A stretch of DNA of 64,000 nucleotides from assembly GCA_022402465.1 (NCBI GenBank), contig JAKRSH010000007.1, positions 248,001 to 312,000 of the forward strand, given 5' to 3'. Position 1 is the stretch's first letter. Every line of letters starts with the position of its first letter. The position numbers and the translations under genes are program-made. Positions 4,934 through 11,949 of this stretch are shown here, in pieces. The notes under the pieces were generated by a model that was not told the DNA's origin, did no database searches, and was given only the letters and a program-made list of their open reading frames with translations. This DNA comes from Leptospiraceae bacterium. GTDB lineage: Bacteria; Spirochaetota; Leptospiria; Leptospirales; Leptospiraceae.

Positions 4934-5425
4934 ATGATGATATTTTTATCATATAAGAGATCTTTACTAATTTCTATTTCTATCCATCTATTAATATTCT
5001 TTGGATATTTTTTTTATCAATGGAAGTTTCATCCAAGTGAAATATACAAAATAGCTTTAGAAAAAGGCTCATCTTCATCTCTTCAATTTCATTTTAGAGG
5101 AAAAGGTGATTCTAAGGCTAATTCCGTTCAATCTTCTTCACATCAAATAGGATCAGAAACGATACAAAATGAAATTCTACGAATCCAAAATGCCATACCT
5201 TACCCCGAATCAGCACTCCAAAGAGGTCTAGAATCTGATTGCGAATGGTTAGTAACAGTTGCAGAAAATGGAATTCATGAAAATGTGGAAACAACGAGAA
5301 AGTGTCGGTATGAAATTTTCAATTCTGCATTCAAAAAGATAGTCAGAGAATGGAAATTTCAGCTACCACCAGGAACTATAATTCGTATTCCAGTTTCCTT
5401 TCGTATTGTAGATAAAAATGAATAA
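4934..5425 (+). CDS. TonB-family protein, C-terminal domain type
   Basis: A 163-residue single-pass protein. Residues about 8-28 are a hydrophobic anchor (SISIHLLIFFGYFFY), followed by a polar linker. The last 80 or so residues resemble a TonB C-terminal domain: IPYPESALQRGLESDC, then VTVAENG, then a closing segment ending IRIPVSFRIV, matching the usual YP-x2-A-x2-G...V-x-F-x-V pattern. In the family this domain contacts outer-membrane receptors. The proline-rich linker of classical TonB is absent, so it may be a TonB-like structural protein. No exbB/exbD are adjacent. Its end overlaps the antiterminator gene by 8 bases. Two Met codons open the frame and either may be used. Confidence 0.7.
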   Translation: MMIFLSYKRSLLISISIHLLIFFGYFFYQWKFHPSEIYKIALEKGSSSSLQFHFRGKGDSKANSVQSSSHQIGSETIQNEILRIQNAIPYPESALQRGLESDCEWLVTVAENGIHENVETTRKCRYEIFNSAFKKIVREWKFQLPPGTIIRIPVSFRIVDKNE

Positions 5426-5936
5426 AGAATGGCACATACTCTATACCAATCCAAGAGCAGAAAAAAGAGTTCTAAGTTATCTACAAAAATATAATTTTGA
5501 AAGCTACCTACCTCTTCTAAATATAAAAACAAAATGGTCCGATCGTTGGAAAATGGTAGAAAAGCCCATGTTTACGTCTTATGTTTTCGTAAAAATTTCT
5601 TATTGGGAAGATAAAAATAAAATATTGATTCTTCCAGGCATCCATCATATCGTTTTTTACAAGGGCATACCAGCTGTTTTGGAAAATGAGATCATTGAAA
5701 TGATGAAAATCTTAGTAGTGAACTTCGGTGAAAAAATCCAAGTCATCAAAGATGAGAACCTTCAACCTGGGAAAATTCTAGAAATCAAACATGGCAACTT
5801 CAAAGGTCATAAAGCTGAAGTTGTAGAAATAAAAAACAAAACCTACGTTGTAATGAATTTGCCTATGATGGGACAGCAAGCAAGAACAGAAATTAAAATT
5901 GAAGACTTAGGCTTAGAAGAAGGATGGAATAAATAG
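5418..5936 (+). CDS. NusG-family (UpxY/RfaH-like) transcription antiterminator
   Basis: Residues 1-105 form an NGN domain: WHILYTNPRAEKRV at the N-terminus, LPLLNIKTKWSDRWK, then PMFTSYVFVKI, the hallmark of specialised NusG paralogues. Residues about 120-155 are a KOW motif (LQPGKILEIKHGNFKGHKAEVVEI). The 172-residue length fits UpxY/RfaH/LoaP proteins, which travel with RNA polymerase and suppress termination in long operons, often for polysaccharides. It overlaps the TonB-like gene by 8 bases and its stop directly abuts the kdsD ATG. That placement beside a lipopolysaccharide-precursor enzyme suggests a role in envelope-operon elongation, which is inference. It is not the housekeeping NusG, which normally sits with secE and ribosomal genes. 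Confidence 0.85.
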   Translation: MNKEWHILYTNPRAEKRVLSYLQKYNFESYLPLLNIKTKWSDRWKMVEKPMFTSYVFVKISYWEDKNKILILPGIHHIVFYKGIPAVLENEIIEMMKILVVNFGEKIQVIKDENLQPGKILEIKHGNFKGHKAEVVEIKNKTYVVMNLPMMGQQARTEIKIEDLGLEEGWNK

Positions 5937-6899
5937 ATGTCATATCTAGATATTATAAAAAAGGCTATAGATATTGAAGTTGAATCTATTCAATACTTCC
6001 AGGATAATTTGGATCCAAATATTGAACAAGCCGTACAGATTCTTTTAGATTGCAAAGGAAAAGTTATCCTAACAGGAGTTGGAAAATCAGGAAACATAGC
6101 CAAAAAAATCTCATCAACCATGTCTTCCACTGGAACACCTGCTGTTTTCATTCATCCAACAGATGCACTTCATGGCGATGCAGGCATCATTCAAAATGGT
6201 GATGTTGTCTTGGCTATAGGTAAGAGCGGAGAATCGGACGAATTGAATTCATTATTACCAACAATTAAAAAGATAGGTGCCAAAATAATCTCAATCACTG
6301 CAAATCCTGAATCTACCCTTGCAAAAGCTTCTGATGCTCCTATTGTTACTCCAGTTTTAAAAGAAGCATGTCCTCTTGCCTTAGCTCCTACATCTAGCAC
6401 TACAATTGCCTTAATTGTTGGTGATGCCCTAGCGATGGCCCTGATGGAGATACGTAATTTTAAAACAGAAGATTTTGCTCTCTACCATCCCGCAGGCAGA
6501 CTTGGCAAAAGGCTTTCCTTAGTCATAGATGATGTTATGCGAAAAGGTACTCAAGTAGCCTCAGTTGAAGCAGATGCAAATTTTGAAATGGTTTTGAAAG
6601 AAATTACTTCTAAAATGGTTGGAGCAACTGGGGTTGTAGACAGAGATCAAAAGTTAATTGGATTTATAACAGACAACGATATTCGTAAAACTTTTATGAA
6701 TAAAATCGATGTTGACCTTACTGCTGAAAAAATCATGAATCCATCACCTTCTTTTTTCCTTTCCGGGAGCAATGCATATGATGTCTTGGTAAGCATGGAA
6801 AATCGAGAAAGACCAATTTCAGTTGCTCCTATTATTGACTCAGAGCACAAATTAATTGGAATCATAACGGTTCACGATCTACTTCAGAAAGGATTGTAA
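5937..6899 (+). CDS. kdsD: arabinose-5-phosphate isomerase (KpsF/GutQ/KdsD family)
   Basis: Interconverts ribulose-5-phosphate and arabinose-5-phosphate, the first step toward the lipopolysaccharide sugar Kdo. Residues about 35-170 are a SIS domain with TGVGKSGNIAKK, TDALHGDAG and GKSGESDE, all diagnostic. Two CBS domains follow, beginning at VMRKGTQVASV and IMNPSPSFFL, each ending in the typical LIGFITDNDI or LIGIITVHDL. The 320-residue length is normal. The ATG directly follows the antiterminator stop, with AGAAGGA upstream inside that gene. It lies one base before the aroD ATG, so the genes form one transcription unit. Confidence 0.93.
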   Translation: MSYLDIIKKAIDIEVESIQYFQDNLDPNIEQAVQILLDCKGKVILTGVGKSGNIAKKISSTMSSTGTPAVFIHPTDALHGDAGIIQNGDVVLAIGKSGESDELNSLLPTIKKIGAKIISITANPESTLAKASDAPIVTPVLKEACPLALAPTSSTTIALIVGDALAMALMEIRNFKTEDFALYHPAGRLGKRLSLVIDDVMRKGTQVASVEADANFEMVLKEITSKMVGATGVVDRDQKLIGFITDNDIRKTFMNKIDVDLTAEKIMNPSPSFFLSGSNAYDVLVSMENRERPISVAPIIDSEHKLIGIITVHDLLQKGL

Positions 6900-6900
6900 A

Positions 6901-7587
6901 ATGTCTGCAAAATACAAAGTTATAGCCTCCGTTGGTGAAGAAGATTTACGAAATTTACAAAAGAAGGATACTAAAGATCTAGACCTTTTAGAAGTAAGGT
7001 TAGATCTCTTCTCAAGAAATTATATTCAAAAAGAACTTAAGAAGAAAATTAAATCTCTCTCTATTCCTGTTCTTTTAACTTATAGAAGAGCTGAAGATAG
7101 CAATATGAAATCCTATGTAAAACTCTTCCCTGAAGATGTAGAAGATTTATTAAAAGATTTTAATTCATCTGAGAATTTTTTAGATATTGAATTGAATCGT
7201 GATGATACTATATTTGTAGGATTTGAATCACTTAAGTATCAGATTATTTACTCTTATCATAGTTTTAAAAAATCCATCTCTCAAAAAGAAATGAAAGAAT
7301 ATATTTCCAATGCTAAACCAGTAAAGTCTGGGAAACCGATTTTTAAATTTGCGATTACACCCGAAGATATCAATGAAGCAGCGGATTTCATGAGTGATAT
7401 AAAAATTATTTCCAAATCTGCAACCCTTATTGGAGTCTGCATGGGAGAATCAGGAATTATTTCTAGAGTATTTGGGGATGCTTATGGATCCTCTTTTACT
7501 TACATAACGATTGGTGAGCCTAAAGCTCCTGGCCAAATTCCAGTAGATACTTTTAAAAAACTGCGTCCTGATTTATTTAAGCAATAA
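6901..7587 (+). CDS. aroD: type I 3-dehydroquinate dehydratase
   Basis: Third step of the shikimate pathway, removing water from 3-dehydroquinate through a Schiff base. The class I signatures are visible: early LLEVRLDLF, LLTYRR, the catalytic His in SYHSF, the Schiff-base Lys in KPIFKFAITP, and the substrate-binding end EPKAPGQIPVD. The 228-residue length is typical of single-domain class I enzymes. A ribosome site (AGAAAGGA) lies in the end of kdsD. The gene sits in a plus-strand operon with kdsD and a FliG-like protein. Together with aroC at 2470 it places two shikimate genes within 5 kb on opposite strands. Confidence 0.93.
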   Translation: MSAKYKVIASVGEEDLRNLQKKDTKDLDLLEVRLDLFSRNYIQKELKKKIKSLSIPVLLTYRRAEDSNMKSYVKLFPEDVEDLLKDFNSSENFLDIELNRDDTIFVGFESLKYQIIYSYHSFKKSISQKEMKEYISNAKPVKSGKPIFKFAITPEDINEAADFMSDIKIISKSATLIGVCMGESGIISRVFGDAYGSSFTYITIGEPKAPGQIPVDTFKKLRPDLFKQ

Positions 7588-7596
7588 GGATACACT

Positions 7597-7926
7597 ATGT
7601 CTGATTCTAGCGATTTATCTTTTGAAAAATTTGAAGAATTCTCTTTTTTTGATAATCTTGCCTTATACTATTTGTGTAACGAGACTCCTCCACAAACTCT
7701 AGCACTTGCCTTTTTAATCGCTGAAAAAAAAGTATGTGGCTCTATGTTGGGTGTCTTAGAACCAAAAAGAAGAAAGTATGTTCATGAACTTATGTCTTCT
7801 CAGCAAGATGAAAGCATGGAAAAAAAGAAAGCCGCGGCTGATGGTATGCTTATTATAGCCGAAGGTTTGCTTTCAAGAGATTTGATTCAGAAAAAGGGAA
7901 ATTTTTATTTCGGAAAACCAAAGTAA
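7597..7926 (+). CDS. small protein resembling a FliG domain
   Basis: A 109-residue soluble protein. Residues about 28-65 (ETPPQTLALAFLIAEKK, then LGVLEPKRRKYVHEL) resemble the FliG segment that normally reads EHPQTIALIL...VL..LP...R..V...I, part of the flagellar switch protein. Only one such helical unit is present, and the torque-generating C-terminal domain is absent. The start is well supported by AAGGA 8 bases upstream. It lies 9 bases after aroD, at the end of the operon. The likeness is by eye and could be a chance similarity between armadillo-like helices. A role in the flagellar motor is speculative. Confidence 0.6.
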   Translation: MSDSSDLSFEKFEEFSFFDNLALYYLCNETPPQTLALAFLIAEKKVCGSMLGVLEPKRRKYVHELMSSQQDESMEKKKAAADGMLIIAEGLLSRDLIQKKGNFYFGKPK

Positions 7927-8049: not shown

Positions 8050-11000
8050 ATGAACTTCTTTAGGAAATATTTCCTATATATTTTAATTTTGCTATTTGCT
8101 AATGGTTGTGTAGCTTGGCCCGGTTTCACAGCGATTTTTGCGACTCTGCAAAAAACAGCTTCATCAAGTATGGAGTCTCTTGGATTGCTTTTATTGGGAG
8201 GTCAGCCTTCACCAAATGTTGAGCAAGGAACTCCAGCTACACTAGATGGAGAATCTGTAGTTGATATACCAAGCTTGGTCTCTATTGAAATTTCTACTCT
8301 AAATCCATCTTTTCCAAAAGGAACAACAATTGATTTAGCTGTAACTGCGATCTATTCGAATAATACAAACCAAGATGTAACCAGTGAAGCTACTTTTCAG
8401 AATCTCAGTCCTATTATTTTGTCTTTACAATCTACTCATTCTCAAATTTTGGGATTCAATATAGGTAATGGACTAATACAAGCAAGCTTCCAAGGTAAAA
8501 CTGCAAACATTAACTTAACTGTTACAAATGCTATTTTACAGTCTATACAGCTAAGTCCTTCCCCTATGCAAGTACAAGTGGCACTAAATGCTACCTTTTT
8601 TGTAACAGGAATTTATTCAGATTCTACCACAGCAGATCTCACAAATCATCCCAATATTACTTATGTTAGCTCAAATACAAGTATAGCGAACATATCATCC
8701 AATGGTCAAATATTAGGAATTGCTAATGGCACGACAAGTTTTAAGGCTATCTTTGATAGTTTTGAAAGCACGGCAATCGTAGAAGTTGTTTCTCCAACTT
8801 TAACTAGTATTCAAATAACACCTAACAACCCATCGATAGCTCTAGGTTTGACTCAGAATTTTGTAGCAATTGGGAATTACAGCAATGGAACTTCTGTTGA
8901 TCTTACTAATTCAGTAACTTGGATCTCTTCCGATTCATCAGCAGCTGTATTTTATGCTAGTCCTGTTCCTAGAGGTCAAATACAATCCTTATTGGAAGGA
9001 TCAGTTACGATTACTGCTCAATTGAATTCTATTATCAGCAATTCAGTCCTACTTTCTATCACTCAAAAACAATTAACACAAATTGCTATCTCTCCAAATA
9101 ACACTTCTTTGCCTAAAGGAAATACATTGCAATTCCAAGCAATGGGAACATTTACAGATAACTCAATGGCAGATATAACAACTTTAGTTACTTGGTCATC
9201 TAATGATGCAAATATTGCAAGCATAAGCAATGGCGGAGGGATGGATGGACTGTCTTCTGCGGTCAACGTTGGAAGTACAACAATTTCCCTTAGCTATAAC
9301 ACTTTTTCAACTAGTACTTCCATCAATGTTACAGCTGCCATTCTTTCCAGTATTGCCATAGTTCCAGTTAATGCATCAACAGTTGCAGGATTGACTCGAT
9401 CTTATTCGGCAATCGGTACATACTCAGATTCTAGCACTCAAAATATTACCCAATCTGTAATTTGGAGTGTAAGTGATCCAAGCAAAGCAACTATTGACAA
9501 TAGTCTGCTGCATAAAGGATTATTAACAGCTATTAGTGCAGGAAATATAATCATTCATGCACAATTGAATCCTATAAGTGGATCAACATCTGGGACTATC
9601 CTTGCTGGAGATACGACACCACCAACTGTTATTTCAGCTACATCCATCAATCCAAGCACAGTTCAAATAACTTTCTCAGAACCAATCAATACTATAGGTG
9701 CCTTAGATACTAATAATTTTAAAATATCTAATTCAAGCTCCTTACTTGGTTTTTGTTCTAATAATTCAAATTTTTCGAATTCTTCTCAGACAACTGACTT
9801 TGCGATCGATTCTATTTCAGGTTCTGGAAGTGTGTATACTTTGAATTTAAGTTCGAGCCAGATCTTTGGGAAAAATTATACTGTCCTAGTCAATAAATCC
9901 AACATCTATGATTTAGCTGCTATTCCAAATAATTTGGGCTGTTCGAATTCAGCAGGTTTTGAAGGACAATCTATTCTACGTATTTCTTCTTCTAATTGTA
10001 AAAATCTTAATCAAATATTAGTTACATTTTCTAAACCAGTTAAGACTGGCTCATCTTCAGGAGGAGCAGAATGTGACTCAGCAAGTTCTTGCGCAACTAA
10101 ATATAAAATAACAGGAATCGATTTAGGTCAAATCACTTCTGCCAAAATATTGGATGGAATAGTATGCGGAGCCGAAGCAGCAAATTCATCTAAGGTTTGT
10201 ATCACTCATACTTTAATTCAAAATGGTGCAGTAAGCACTATAATAGGTGCCAATGCAACTAATGGAGATGGTTTTGAAGATACATCTTATTCTGCAATCA
10301 GAGATCTAGCCGACAGTGAAAATCTTCAAAGCAATCCAAGAGATCGTGCTAGTTTTTCCGGTTGCGGTACGGTACCGGTAAATTTTTCAGATGGTGCTAT
10401 TTCCACAAATACTTTCGGAGATGGAACATCATTTGGATATCTATCTAATTACAATAATCAAATCTATATAGGTCCTAACCGTGAGGGAAATTCCGCAGCT
10501 AGATTTCAATTTGATGGATCTAATCCTTCCAATATTGGATTTCAAATAGATAAACACAATGGCGCTAGGAATACAGCCAACTCAAGAGACGGTGGAATTT
10601 CTGTACCACCTTTTGTTACTATGGGTCACAATGGATGTATTGAATCCAATGCAAACCTTTCTGTTGGTTGTGGACCAGATAATGAAAATGGAAGAGGGAA
10701 TTTTTCTGTTGGAAATTTATTTGGTAGCGAAATACTTTTCATGGGTGGAGCTAGGAATTTTCCTGGTGTAACCTTTCCTCATTTTAGATATCTTTATTAT
10801 ACTGTAGATACTTCTACTTCCTTGGATTTCAAGTACATTCAATTAGGAAATATAACTGGAAGCTCAACAGCAGGAACTCAAAGTTTTGTTACACAAAATA
10901 ATAATTTATATGCTGGCTTCGCAAAGTTCAACCAACCTTCTTATGCGGGTGGTGGTGCTTCGAGAAATACGCCTGATTTTGGATTTATAAAATTTACAAC

Positions 11001-11949
11001 CAATGCCGGAGATAATACTTCTTGTTTGATTGGAAACAATTGTGAAGCAGGTAACAATGGTAGGGGTGTAAGATTTCGTATAGACCGAGTGCCATTTTTT
11101 GGTGGATCTAGCGCTGAATCGAATGATAATACTTATACAAATTATGGACTTTATACGGGAGTTGATTCCCTGATAGTCTTTAACAATAGAATCTATACTG
11201 CAAATGGTGGACACAACCAAGAAAATCACAATGGTGGAATCATTCGTTCAAATACTACAAGCCCTGGTGCCTGTGCAGGAAAATACAACTGTGCTGCTAA
11301 CTGGACAGAAATTACTCCAAGATCCAATGTTCATTGGCATGGTAGCTCTGGAAATTGGTTTTCCTTAGAGCTACGAAAATCCTCTGATTTTACGCCTGGA
11401 GATTTAGCATTTGCACAATTTGCTGAGTTCAATGGAAATTTATTTGCAATCCGAACGTTTTGTATCGCTACTGCTTCCAATGCCCTTGATCATGCTGATG
11501 CTATATCTAAGCCCGCGTTGGTAGGTTGCAATGATGGCACAACGAACAATAGACGTCCACAATTATGGAAATGTGATCCAAGTTTAACTTCTGGTCCACT
11601 TACTTGTGAAGCAGGAGATTGGTCCTTAGTAGCAGACAACAATTCTGGTATTACGAATTTCGGATCTATCGGTAATCATAGTGCGACCTTATTAGTAAGG
11701 AATGGAAGTTATTTATATATAGGCTTTGATAATAATTCAGGAATTGAGATTTGGAGAACAAATGTTGCAAATCCAGGAAACAATTCTAATGAATGGCAAA
11801 AAGTTTCTACAAATGGTCTTGGAGATCCATTGAATATGTTAAATATTTTTTCTGCGATCTCCGTTCCAGTTGGTTCGCTAAATTATATTTACGTTTCGAC
11901 TGGGAAAACTGGTATTCCATTAAAAATCTTCAGACAGCAGAACAATTAA
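8050..11949 (+). CDS. large lipoprotein with five bacterial Ig-like repeats
   Basis: Residues 1-20 are a lipoprotein signal ending FANGC. About residues 76-522 carry five Big_2-like repeats of 85-90 residues, each opening with a phrase such as SIQLSPSPMQV, SIQITPNNPSIALG or QIAISPNNTSLPKG and containing G-x-Y/F-S/T-D/N-x-S/T, then T-W-S-S. Residues about 523-640 start DTTPPTVISA and contain ITFSEPIN, resembling an SbsA-type Ig-like domain, and a related segment (ILVTFSKPVK) follows. The last 500 or so residues are Gly/Asn-rich, with blocks such as NQIYIGPN and NNLYAGF, and look like a surface beta structure. Leptospiral Lig adhesins use similar Ig repeats, but this architecture differs. It is probably an exposed outer-membrane lipoprotein. 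The two Bor-like genes directly follow. Confidence 0.85.
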   Translation: MNFFRKYFLYILILLFANGCVAWPGFTAIFATLQKTASSSMESLGLLLLGGQPSPNVEQGTPATLDGESVVDIPSLVSIEISTLNPSFPKGTTIDLAVTAIYSNNTNQDVTSEATFQNLSPIILSLQSTHSQILGFNIGNGLIQASFQGKTANINLTVTNAILQSIQLSPSPMQVQVALNATFFVTGIYSDSTTADLTNHPNITYVSSNTSIANISSNGQILGIANGTTSFKAIFDSFESTAIVEVVSPTLTSIQITPNNPSIALGLTQNFVAIGNYSNGTSVDLTNSVTWISSDSSAAVFYASPVPRGQIQSLLEGSVTITAQLNSIISNSVLLSITQKQLTQIAISPNNTSLPKGNTLQFQAMGTFTDNSMADITTLVTWSSNDANIASISNGGGMDGLSSAVNVGSTTISLSYNTFSTSTSINVTAAILSSIAIVPVNASTVAGLTRSYSAIGTYSDSSTQNITQSVIWSVSDPSKATIDNSLLHKGLLTAISAGNIIIHAQLNPISGSTSGTILAGDTTPPTVISATSINPSTVQITFSEPINTIGALDTNNFKISNSSSLLGFCSNNSNFSNSSQTTDFAIDSISGSGSVYTLNLSSSQIFGKNYTVLVNKSNIYDLAAIPNNLGCSNSAGFEGQSILRISSSNCKNLNQILVTFSKPVKTGSSSGGAECDSASSCATKYKITGIDLGQITSAKILDGIVCGAEAANSSKVCITHTLIQNGAVSTIIGANATNGDGFEDTSYSAIRDLADSENLQSNPRDRASFSGCGTVPVNFSDGAISTNTFGDGTSFGYLSNYNNQIYIGPNREGNSAARFQFDGSNPSNIGFQIDKHNGARNTANSRDGGISVPPFVTMGHNGCIESNANLSVGCGPDNENGRGNFSVGNLFGSEILFMGGARNFPGVTFPHFRYLYYTVDTSTSLDFKYIQLGNITGSSTAGTQSFVTQNNNLYAGFAKFNQPSYAGGGASRNTPDFGFIKFTTNAGDNTSCLIGNNCEAGNNGRGVRFRIDRVPFFGGSSAESNDNTYTNYGLYTGVDSLIVFNNRIYTANGGHNQENHNGGIIRSNTTSPGACAGKYNCAANWTEITPRSNVHWHGSSGNWFSLELRKSSDFTPGDLAFAQFAEFNGNLFAIRTFCIATASNALDHADAISKPALVGCNDGTTNNRRPQLWKCDPSLTSGPLTCEAGDWSLVADNNSGITNFGSIGNHSATLLVRNGSYLYIGFDNNSGIEIWRTNVANPGNNSNEWQKVSTNGLGDPLNMLNIFSAISVPVGSLNYIYVSTGKTGIPLKIFRQQNN

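Follow-up and report, generated by a model that had tools for sequence, protein, structure and literature searches.

A UpxY/RfaH-type NusG paralogue of a Leptospiraceae bacterium and a candidate ops-like leader element at a distant glycan cluster and a recombinase locus

UpxY-type regulators have long been known as activators of the operon in which they are encoded. The 64-kb stretch of DNA analysed here (the window; C42:248001-312000 of a 3.99-Mb draft genome of 45 contigs) encodes a NusG paralogue of this type that lacks this trait: it does not lie inside a glycan operon that it could activate, while its relatives in G150, G151 and G048 do. This raises the question of where its target is. 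The original prediction had placed a specialised UpxY/RfaH-type NusG paralogue between a TonB-like gene and kdsD, and this is borne out by the profile scores (Table 1). It had also described a short operon; kdsD indeed belongs to it, but the run extends further, into aroD and a 109-amino acid ORF that has no NCBIfam match. The five genes (TonB-like gene, UpxY, kdsD, aroD, ORF) are tightly packed: genes 1 to 4 overlap or abut, with the kdsD start codon directly at the UpxY stop and aroD beginning one base past kdsD, and the successive intervals are an overlap, 0, 1 and 9 bases. Directly downstream of the operon (8050-11949, plus strand) is the gene of a 1299-amino acid protein with four Big_2 (bacterial Ig-like) domains. 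The absence of a glycan operon around the paralogue holds for the whole of contig C42, which has no GT1 or GT2 genes (none of 21 PF00535 places and none of 13 PF00534 places); 'elsewhere' is used here for a position on another contig.

Table 1. Genes of the paralogue's operon (window positions) and copies of the candidate element (contig positions)
Feature	Location	Strand	Evidence
TonB-like gene, LIC_10042 family, first of the operon	4934-5425	plus	NF047760 LIC10042_TonB 144.9 bits (cut-off 100); Pfam TonB_C 33.6 bits
UpxY/RfaH-type NusG paralogue (NGN + KOW), 172 aa	5418-5936	plus	NF033644 UpxY 111.5 bits (cut-off 100)
kdsD/kpsF arabinose-5-phosphate isomerase (SIS + 2 CBS)	5937-6899	plus	TIGR00393 275.3 bits (cut-off 203.7)
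aroD type I 3-dehydroquinase	6901-7587	plus	PF01487 115.5 bits
109-aa ORF, last gene of the run, weak FliG_C likeness	7597-7926	plus	PF01706 16.1 bits (below cut-off 23.3)
Candidate element, copy 1	C29:104424-104452	minus	R1 training site
Candidate element, copy 2, just downstream of nucleotidyltransferase-type gene pair	C29:96253-96283	minus	R1 training site
Candidate element, copy 3	C18:6324-6353 (L111)	minus	R1 E 2.7e-4, outside training set

Beyond the UpxY model, the paralogue also exceeds the cut-off of Pfam NusG (56.5 bits, cut-off 22.2), with a KOW domain that is sub-threshold in Pfam. RfaH and LoaP were ruled out as its family, as the scores against both models are below cut-off (TIGR01955, 75.5 bits, cut-off 144.5; NF033641, 40.2 bits, cut-off 125). 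The original prediction had named the absence of a second nusG as its refutation, and this fails: the genome has one other NusG-family gene (C39:29262-29738), which stands in the order secE-nusG-rplK-rplA. With the secE-nusG-rplK place held by this gene, the idea that the window protein is the general NusG was rejected; the two proteins are 24% identical. In a tree of 31 rows, in which the placing of single long rows is unsure, the window protein groups with that of G004 (98/96) within a clade of eight class members (97/97), and the clade is apart from general NusG (100/99).

Contig C29 contains an envelope-glycan cluster of about 99 kb (C29:5198-104391), with 97 of the 100 ORFs picked on the minus strand, that extends from a wecA-like gene (start 104391) to a GT2 gene (5198). 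The median gap is 6 bases and ten gaps are larger than 200 bases; a MarR_EPS gene (144.8 bits) and rmlD are close by at its head. A similar cluster in G004 has 79 ORFs, 76 of them on one strand. Leptospira rfb loci are larger than 100 kb in some strains according to PMC13111663, and the words NusG, MarR and antitermin are absent from the accessible text of this paper. The search for long envelope operons with ops-like leader sites, proposed together with the original prediction, thus leads to the C29 cluster, which carries two copies of a candidate element; together with the second nusG, the distant cluster and its ops-like leader element support the proposal that the target is probably elsewhere. 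A nucleotidyltransferase/HEPN-like gene pair lies inside the O-antigen cluster (C29:96471-97173), just upstream of the second element copy, and this copy is placed as if it restored elongation after an insertion.

A block such as ATGTGACTCACGCGGCGAAGCTATG is present in the leaders of five genomes (G000, G004, G029, G150 and G151). The element also occurs at two Bacteroidota loci that were picked by protein similarity alone: at L049 right after the UpxY gene and at L048 (Flavobacterium paronense) after UpxY and a winged-helix gene. Its consensus is TGTGACTCAC-N2-GGCGAAGCTATG with the core GCGNAGC, and its form in this genome is GGGACTSAS-N2-GGCGGAGCTATG; the candidate element has 24 bases and is found in two phyla. 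Model R1, made without structure from eight sites (the leaders of the five genomes, the second C29 copy, L048 and L049), was run on 149 genomes of the phylum and identifies three sites in the own genome, two on C29 and one on C18. Model R2, made from 22 sites, returns the same three sites and, among the 150 of 525 first-look candidates that were scored, none further up to E 10. In the R2 alignment, 11 of 33 columns are invariant in the 22 rows and the GCGNAGC heptamer is present in 21 of them, which is a description rather than a test, as the rows were chosen with the model. Judged from these sequence comparisons, the window gene likely encodes a trans-acting antiterminator of the UpxY/RfaH type that is recruited at the ops-like leader element, with predicted targets on C29 and C18.

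The canonical ops sequence GGCGGTAGCGTG, with at most one mismatch, was not found in the scanned loci, and scans for sigma-70 promoters and terminators gave counts equal to those of shuffles. A BLAST search of plasmids with a 30-base consensus returned five records, none of them from a spirochaete or from Bacteroidota. R1 had no match at 12 further loci: eight plasmid paralogue loci (five of Bacteroidota and three proteobacterial), L047, L050, L060 and L062. L047 and L062 are UpxY loci whose elements stand elsewhere in the genome, and L060 is the locus of G075, which has UpxY and no element; the loci without the element include classical UpxY loci of Bacteroides, Phocaeicola and Spirosoma and the three proteobacterial ones. 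Two matches were taken as chance, a tblastn match with three mismatches at L047 that has no R1 support, and a match in G013 (E 0.04) that is inside a coding gene.

Whether the element tracks UpxY was examined in 48 genomes of the class (Leptospira is not among them), with an R1 threshold of E <= 0.05 that was set post hoc. UpxY is over its cut-off in 24 genomes and the element is present in 23, of which 19 are UpxY-positive; the UpxY-negative genomes with element (G155, G158, G162 and G141) are 67-82% complete. Among the 32 genomes that are at least 90% complete, 15/18 UpxY-positive and 0/14 UpxY-negative genomes have the element (p 1.5e-6), and when the five training genomes are left out the numbers are 10/13 and 0/14 (p 3.4e-5), in Fisher tests that take no account of kinship. 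At E <= 0.3, the limit of the search, the element is found in 17/18 complete UpxY-positive and in 3/14 complete UpxY-negative genomes (G017, G040 and G090; partial match), leaving G075 as the only complete UpxY-positive genome without it. Within genus g14, UpxY and element are both present in G048, G062, G169 and G170 and both absent in G110 and G168, while G141 (82% complete) has the element only. In three genomes, an element outside the training set stands directly behind the paralogue: 128 bases past the paralogue match in G048 (C1:291529, E 0.001), 154 bases past the paralogue in G170 (C131:422-447, E 5.7e-4) and, with a weak E of 0.16, about 210 bases past the paralogue gene in G122 (C47:69909).

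The element could instead be the operator or RNA site of the EPS-associated MarR or of another DNA-binding protein, with UpxY simply co-occurring. Indeed, 19 of the 52 sites with enough flanking sequence have a MarR_EPS-like gene within 2 kb downstream on the same strand, and both MarR and UpxY correlate with the element in the 48 genomes (p 0.0047 for MarR). Among complete MarR_EPS-positive genomes, however, the element is found in 12/13 with UpxY and in 0/5 without UpxY (p 7e-4), and the element as a property of MarR_EPS was rejected on this count. Moreover, at 7/52 sites the element is followed by a recombinase gene without MarR, and at the two Bacteroidota loci and in G122 an unrelated winged-helix gene stands in MarR's stead. 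The element is not palindromic, and a better operator candidate exists: a separate palindrome, TGTTCA-N5-TGAACA, lies 20-60 bases before the block in G000, G004, G029, G150 and G151 (L064, L078, L079, L061 and L063) and is likely the operator for the MarR or winged-helix regulator that the cluster itself encodes. All this makes a MarR site an unlikely identity for the element. L049 has an unrelated inverted repeat at the palindrome's matching place, and in the UpxY-negative G137 a weak R1 match (E 0.36) and the MarR_EPS gene are about 3 kb apart. Four of the five complete genomes with MarR and without UpxY and element (G115, G105, G129 and G069) do have a second NusG-like gene, more distant and short of the UpxY cut-off; this suggests an element that goes with this UpxY lineage and not with NusG paralogues generally. 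In three of them (G115:C47, G105:C79 and G129:C84) the distant paralogue is within about 2 kb of MarR_EPS with no element, and it may use another signal.

The third site in the own genome was not foreseen by the original prediction. The C18 element is followed after about 60 bases by a tyrosine recombinase gene; next come genes for a type II methyltransferase (582.5 bits), a type II restriction enzyme (374.4 bits) and a PDC-S26 protein. The recombinase has Phage_integrase and SAM_4 domains and matches the integron-integrase and XerA models below their cut-offs. This particular recombinase is found within 2 kb downstream on the same strand at 7/52 sites, in six genomes including the own one, by a profile that was built from three of these sites; L173 and L174 look like two copies of the same locus. 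Other sites are near type I cas genes: in G029 (L115, C8) cas3-cse1 and a run of small genes lie downstream of the element, and in G095 (L116, C126) and G150 (C189) the element stands between cas3 and unknown genes. The remaining sites are at glycan genes as judged by eye (G062, G158, f11 genomes and G041), at contig ends or at unknown genes (mostly in G153). A sister family has many copies per genome, with four sites in G145 (C18, C21, C32 and C16) and 15 R1 matches in G153 (C22, C46 and others). In G145, recombinase genes follow two of the four sites, both of them close to contig ends, an arrangement suggestive of a repeated mobile unit. This spread beyond glycans, as read from the sequences, was unexpected and looks new.

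In which form the element would be read is a further question. RNA hairpins are the reported signal of LoaP-type paralogues, and the element sits in leaders; the window protein is UpxY-like, and a UpxY recognition site was not found in the open-licence literature. Against an element that acts as nascent RNA in a LoaP-like manner rather than as non-template DNA stand the nearly invariant core, which shows no compensatory changes in the R2 alignment, and the search for known Rfam leader RNAs, which gave no match at gathering in five sources; we regard the RNA form as improbable. In the favoured reading, the paralogue would recognise the non-template strand directly, possibly folded into a GNA mini-hairpin. 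The ops non-template strand forms a hairpin in which C3:G8 closes the loop G4-A7, and this hairpin is of importance along with pausing (PMC5995543, accessible text). The accessible part of PMC4686876 describes two classes of extraordinarily stable DNA mini-hairpins, with GNA and GNNA loops closed by G-C pairs, and a melting temperature of 78 C for the mini-hairpin GCGAAGC. By analogy, the GNA core of the element may parallel the GGTA core of ops as a stable mini-hairpin. Nearest-neighbour DNA folding did not predict the mini-hairpin in six of seven element variants and gave a different, longer stem in the seventh: ACGCGGCGAAGCTATG and four others yield nothing, the G004 variant a weak different pairing and the G029 variant the longer stem via its flanks.

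The best Foldseek matches of the AlphaFold2 model of the window protein are NusG and RfaH structures. The model, based on a 5-sequence alignment, has an NGN domain with pLDDT of about 90 and a beta-type KOW domain with pLDDT of 53-75, and the predicted NGN superimposes on the RfaH N-terminal domain of the ops complex (8pen) with rmsd 1.8 and TMt 0.85. The RfaH ops-contact residues K10, H20, R23, Q24 and R73 correspond to N, Y, K, Y and P in the window protein, and of the residues that touch ops, H20, Q24, N70 and R73 are not conserved; such differences would be expected if a different loop is read. Because KOW is predicted as a beta-barrel and not as an autoinhibited alpha-hairpin, the selectivity of the paralogue is left without explanation. 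In its accessible part, a 2026 preprint (PMC13015549) connects action in trans with a KOW that is alpha-helical and autoinhibited; the beta-type KOW modelled here for a trans-encoded member would be an exception to this rule, but five sequences are too few to decide.

The family set of eight genomes, one per species, has UpxY over the cut-off in seven, and the eighth genome is 75% complete. The tonB-like/UpxY/kdsD/aroD order recurs in G004. In G150 and G151 the paralogue heads the glycan cluster in the order gmhA-UpxY-(2HADH)-MarR_EPS-fcl, and in G048 the order is UpxY-element-MarR_EPS; these orthologues in related genera, within their own glycan cluster and directly upstream of the element, had not been foreseen. 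In G029 the paralogue adjoins fcl and a divergent glycan run, and in G075 a 2-hydroxyacid dehydrogenase gene. The members of one clade are therefore encoded both inside glycan clusters (G150, G151) and away from them (G004, window). G148 (L121, C8), of another family, has the order neuB-UpxY-kdsD, and as its paralogue is in a different clade, the UpxY-kdsD linkage may have arisen twice. It is very improbable that the window paralogue serves its own operon locally or doubles for the general NusG: it is co-transcribed with the LPS-precursor gene kdsD in two genera, but R1 has no match in the 64-kb window, for which reason the operon and the window were rejected as element carriers, the operon consists of five short genes, the general nusG has its own conserved ribosomal-protein context, and the paralogue is divergent.

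According to the accessible parts of PMC7819879 and PMC7593976, UpxY proteins and RfaH act on the elongating polymerase. For the recruitment of the window paralogue in trans we propose that the protein would be expressed steadily as part of a housekeeping operon, would be recruited to RNA polymerase at the ops-like element in early leaders and would then ride with the polymerase along very long transcripts; the predicted targets are the C29 glycan cluster and the C18 operon with recombinase and type II restriction-modification genes, and pausing, suppressed termination (antitermination) and exclusion of NusG would be part of the process. More tentatively, and with slightly less than even confidence, this UpxY lineage may have its own GC-GNA-GC recruitment code, the three-base-loop counterpart of the GC-GGTA-GC of ops, both being extraordinarily stable mini-hairpins; the code would enable a capsule regulator that was formerly encoded in cis to reach, in trans, giant O-antigen clusters as well as mobile recombinase, restriction-modification and cas loci, as an elongation-control network that joins surface antigen and genome defence.

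With a 24-base candidate and three copies in the genome, the question of UpxY recruitment becomes directly testable. The element offers a candidate answer to how an O-antigen cluster of about 100 kb is transcribed in relatives of leptospires, and it predicts that the same factor controls recombinase/restriction-modification and cas loci. The cis- and trans-encoded members of one clade would form a natural series from a local antiterminator to a distant-acting one. In the open-licence literature no description of the element, of this regulator or of a UpxY recruitment signal was found, which is weak evidence of absence. Regulators of this type are known. What looks new is the recruitment element with its link to the UpxY lineage, together with the cis and trans members of the clade and the recombinase/restriction-modification targets.

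Among the known systems, the UpxY capsular antiterminators of Bacteroides fragilis belong to the same family, and both they and the paralogue are linked to long glycan clusters. In contrast to B. fragilis UpxY, the window gene is far from its putative target and beside kdsD, with no UpxZ seen nearby, and four classical Bacteroides and Phocaeicola UpxY loci (L124-L127) lack the leader element. A 2020 mBio paper describes UpxYs, in its accessible part, as activators of the operon in which they reside, and considers an RfaH-like action possible for two orphan UpxYs. LoaP of Bacillus is likewise a NusG paralogue for long operons, with a model whose cut-off the window protein does not reach. The EPS regulator MarR (TIGR04176) marks the same cluster heads, but is also present in five complete genomes without UpxY and element. 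RfaH/ops of E. coli shares the distant envelope operons served in trans (as predicted here), a short leader element, which here is ops-like but distinct, and the NGN fold. Unlike RfaH, the window protein has a predicted beta-barrel KOW and different contact residues, and a recombinase and restriction-modification locus as a target was not found in the open-licence literature. The E. coli K-12 rfb ops reads AGGGGCGGTAGCGTGCATTA (L149). Both ops and the element have a GGC-loop-GC core with TG at the end, GGC-GGTA-GC-GTG in ops and GGC-GNA-GC-TATG in the element, which differs from ops by its GNA loop in place of GGTA and by a conserved GACTSAC block upstream.
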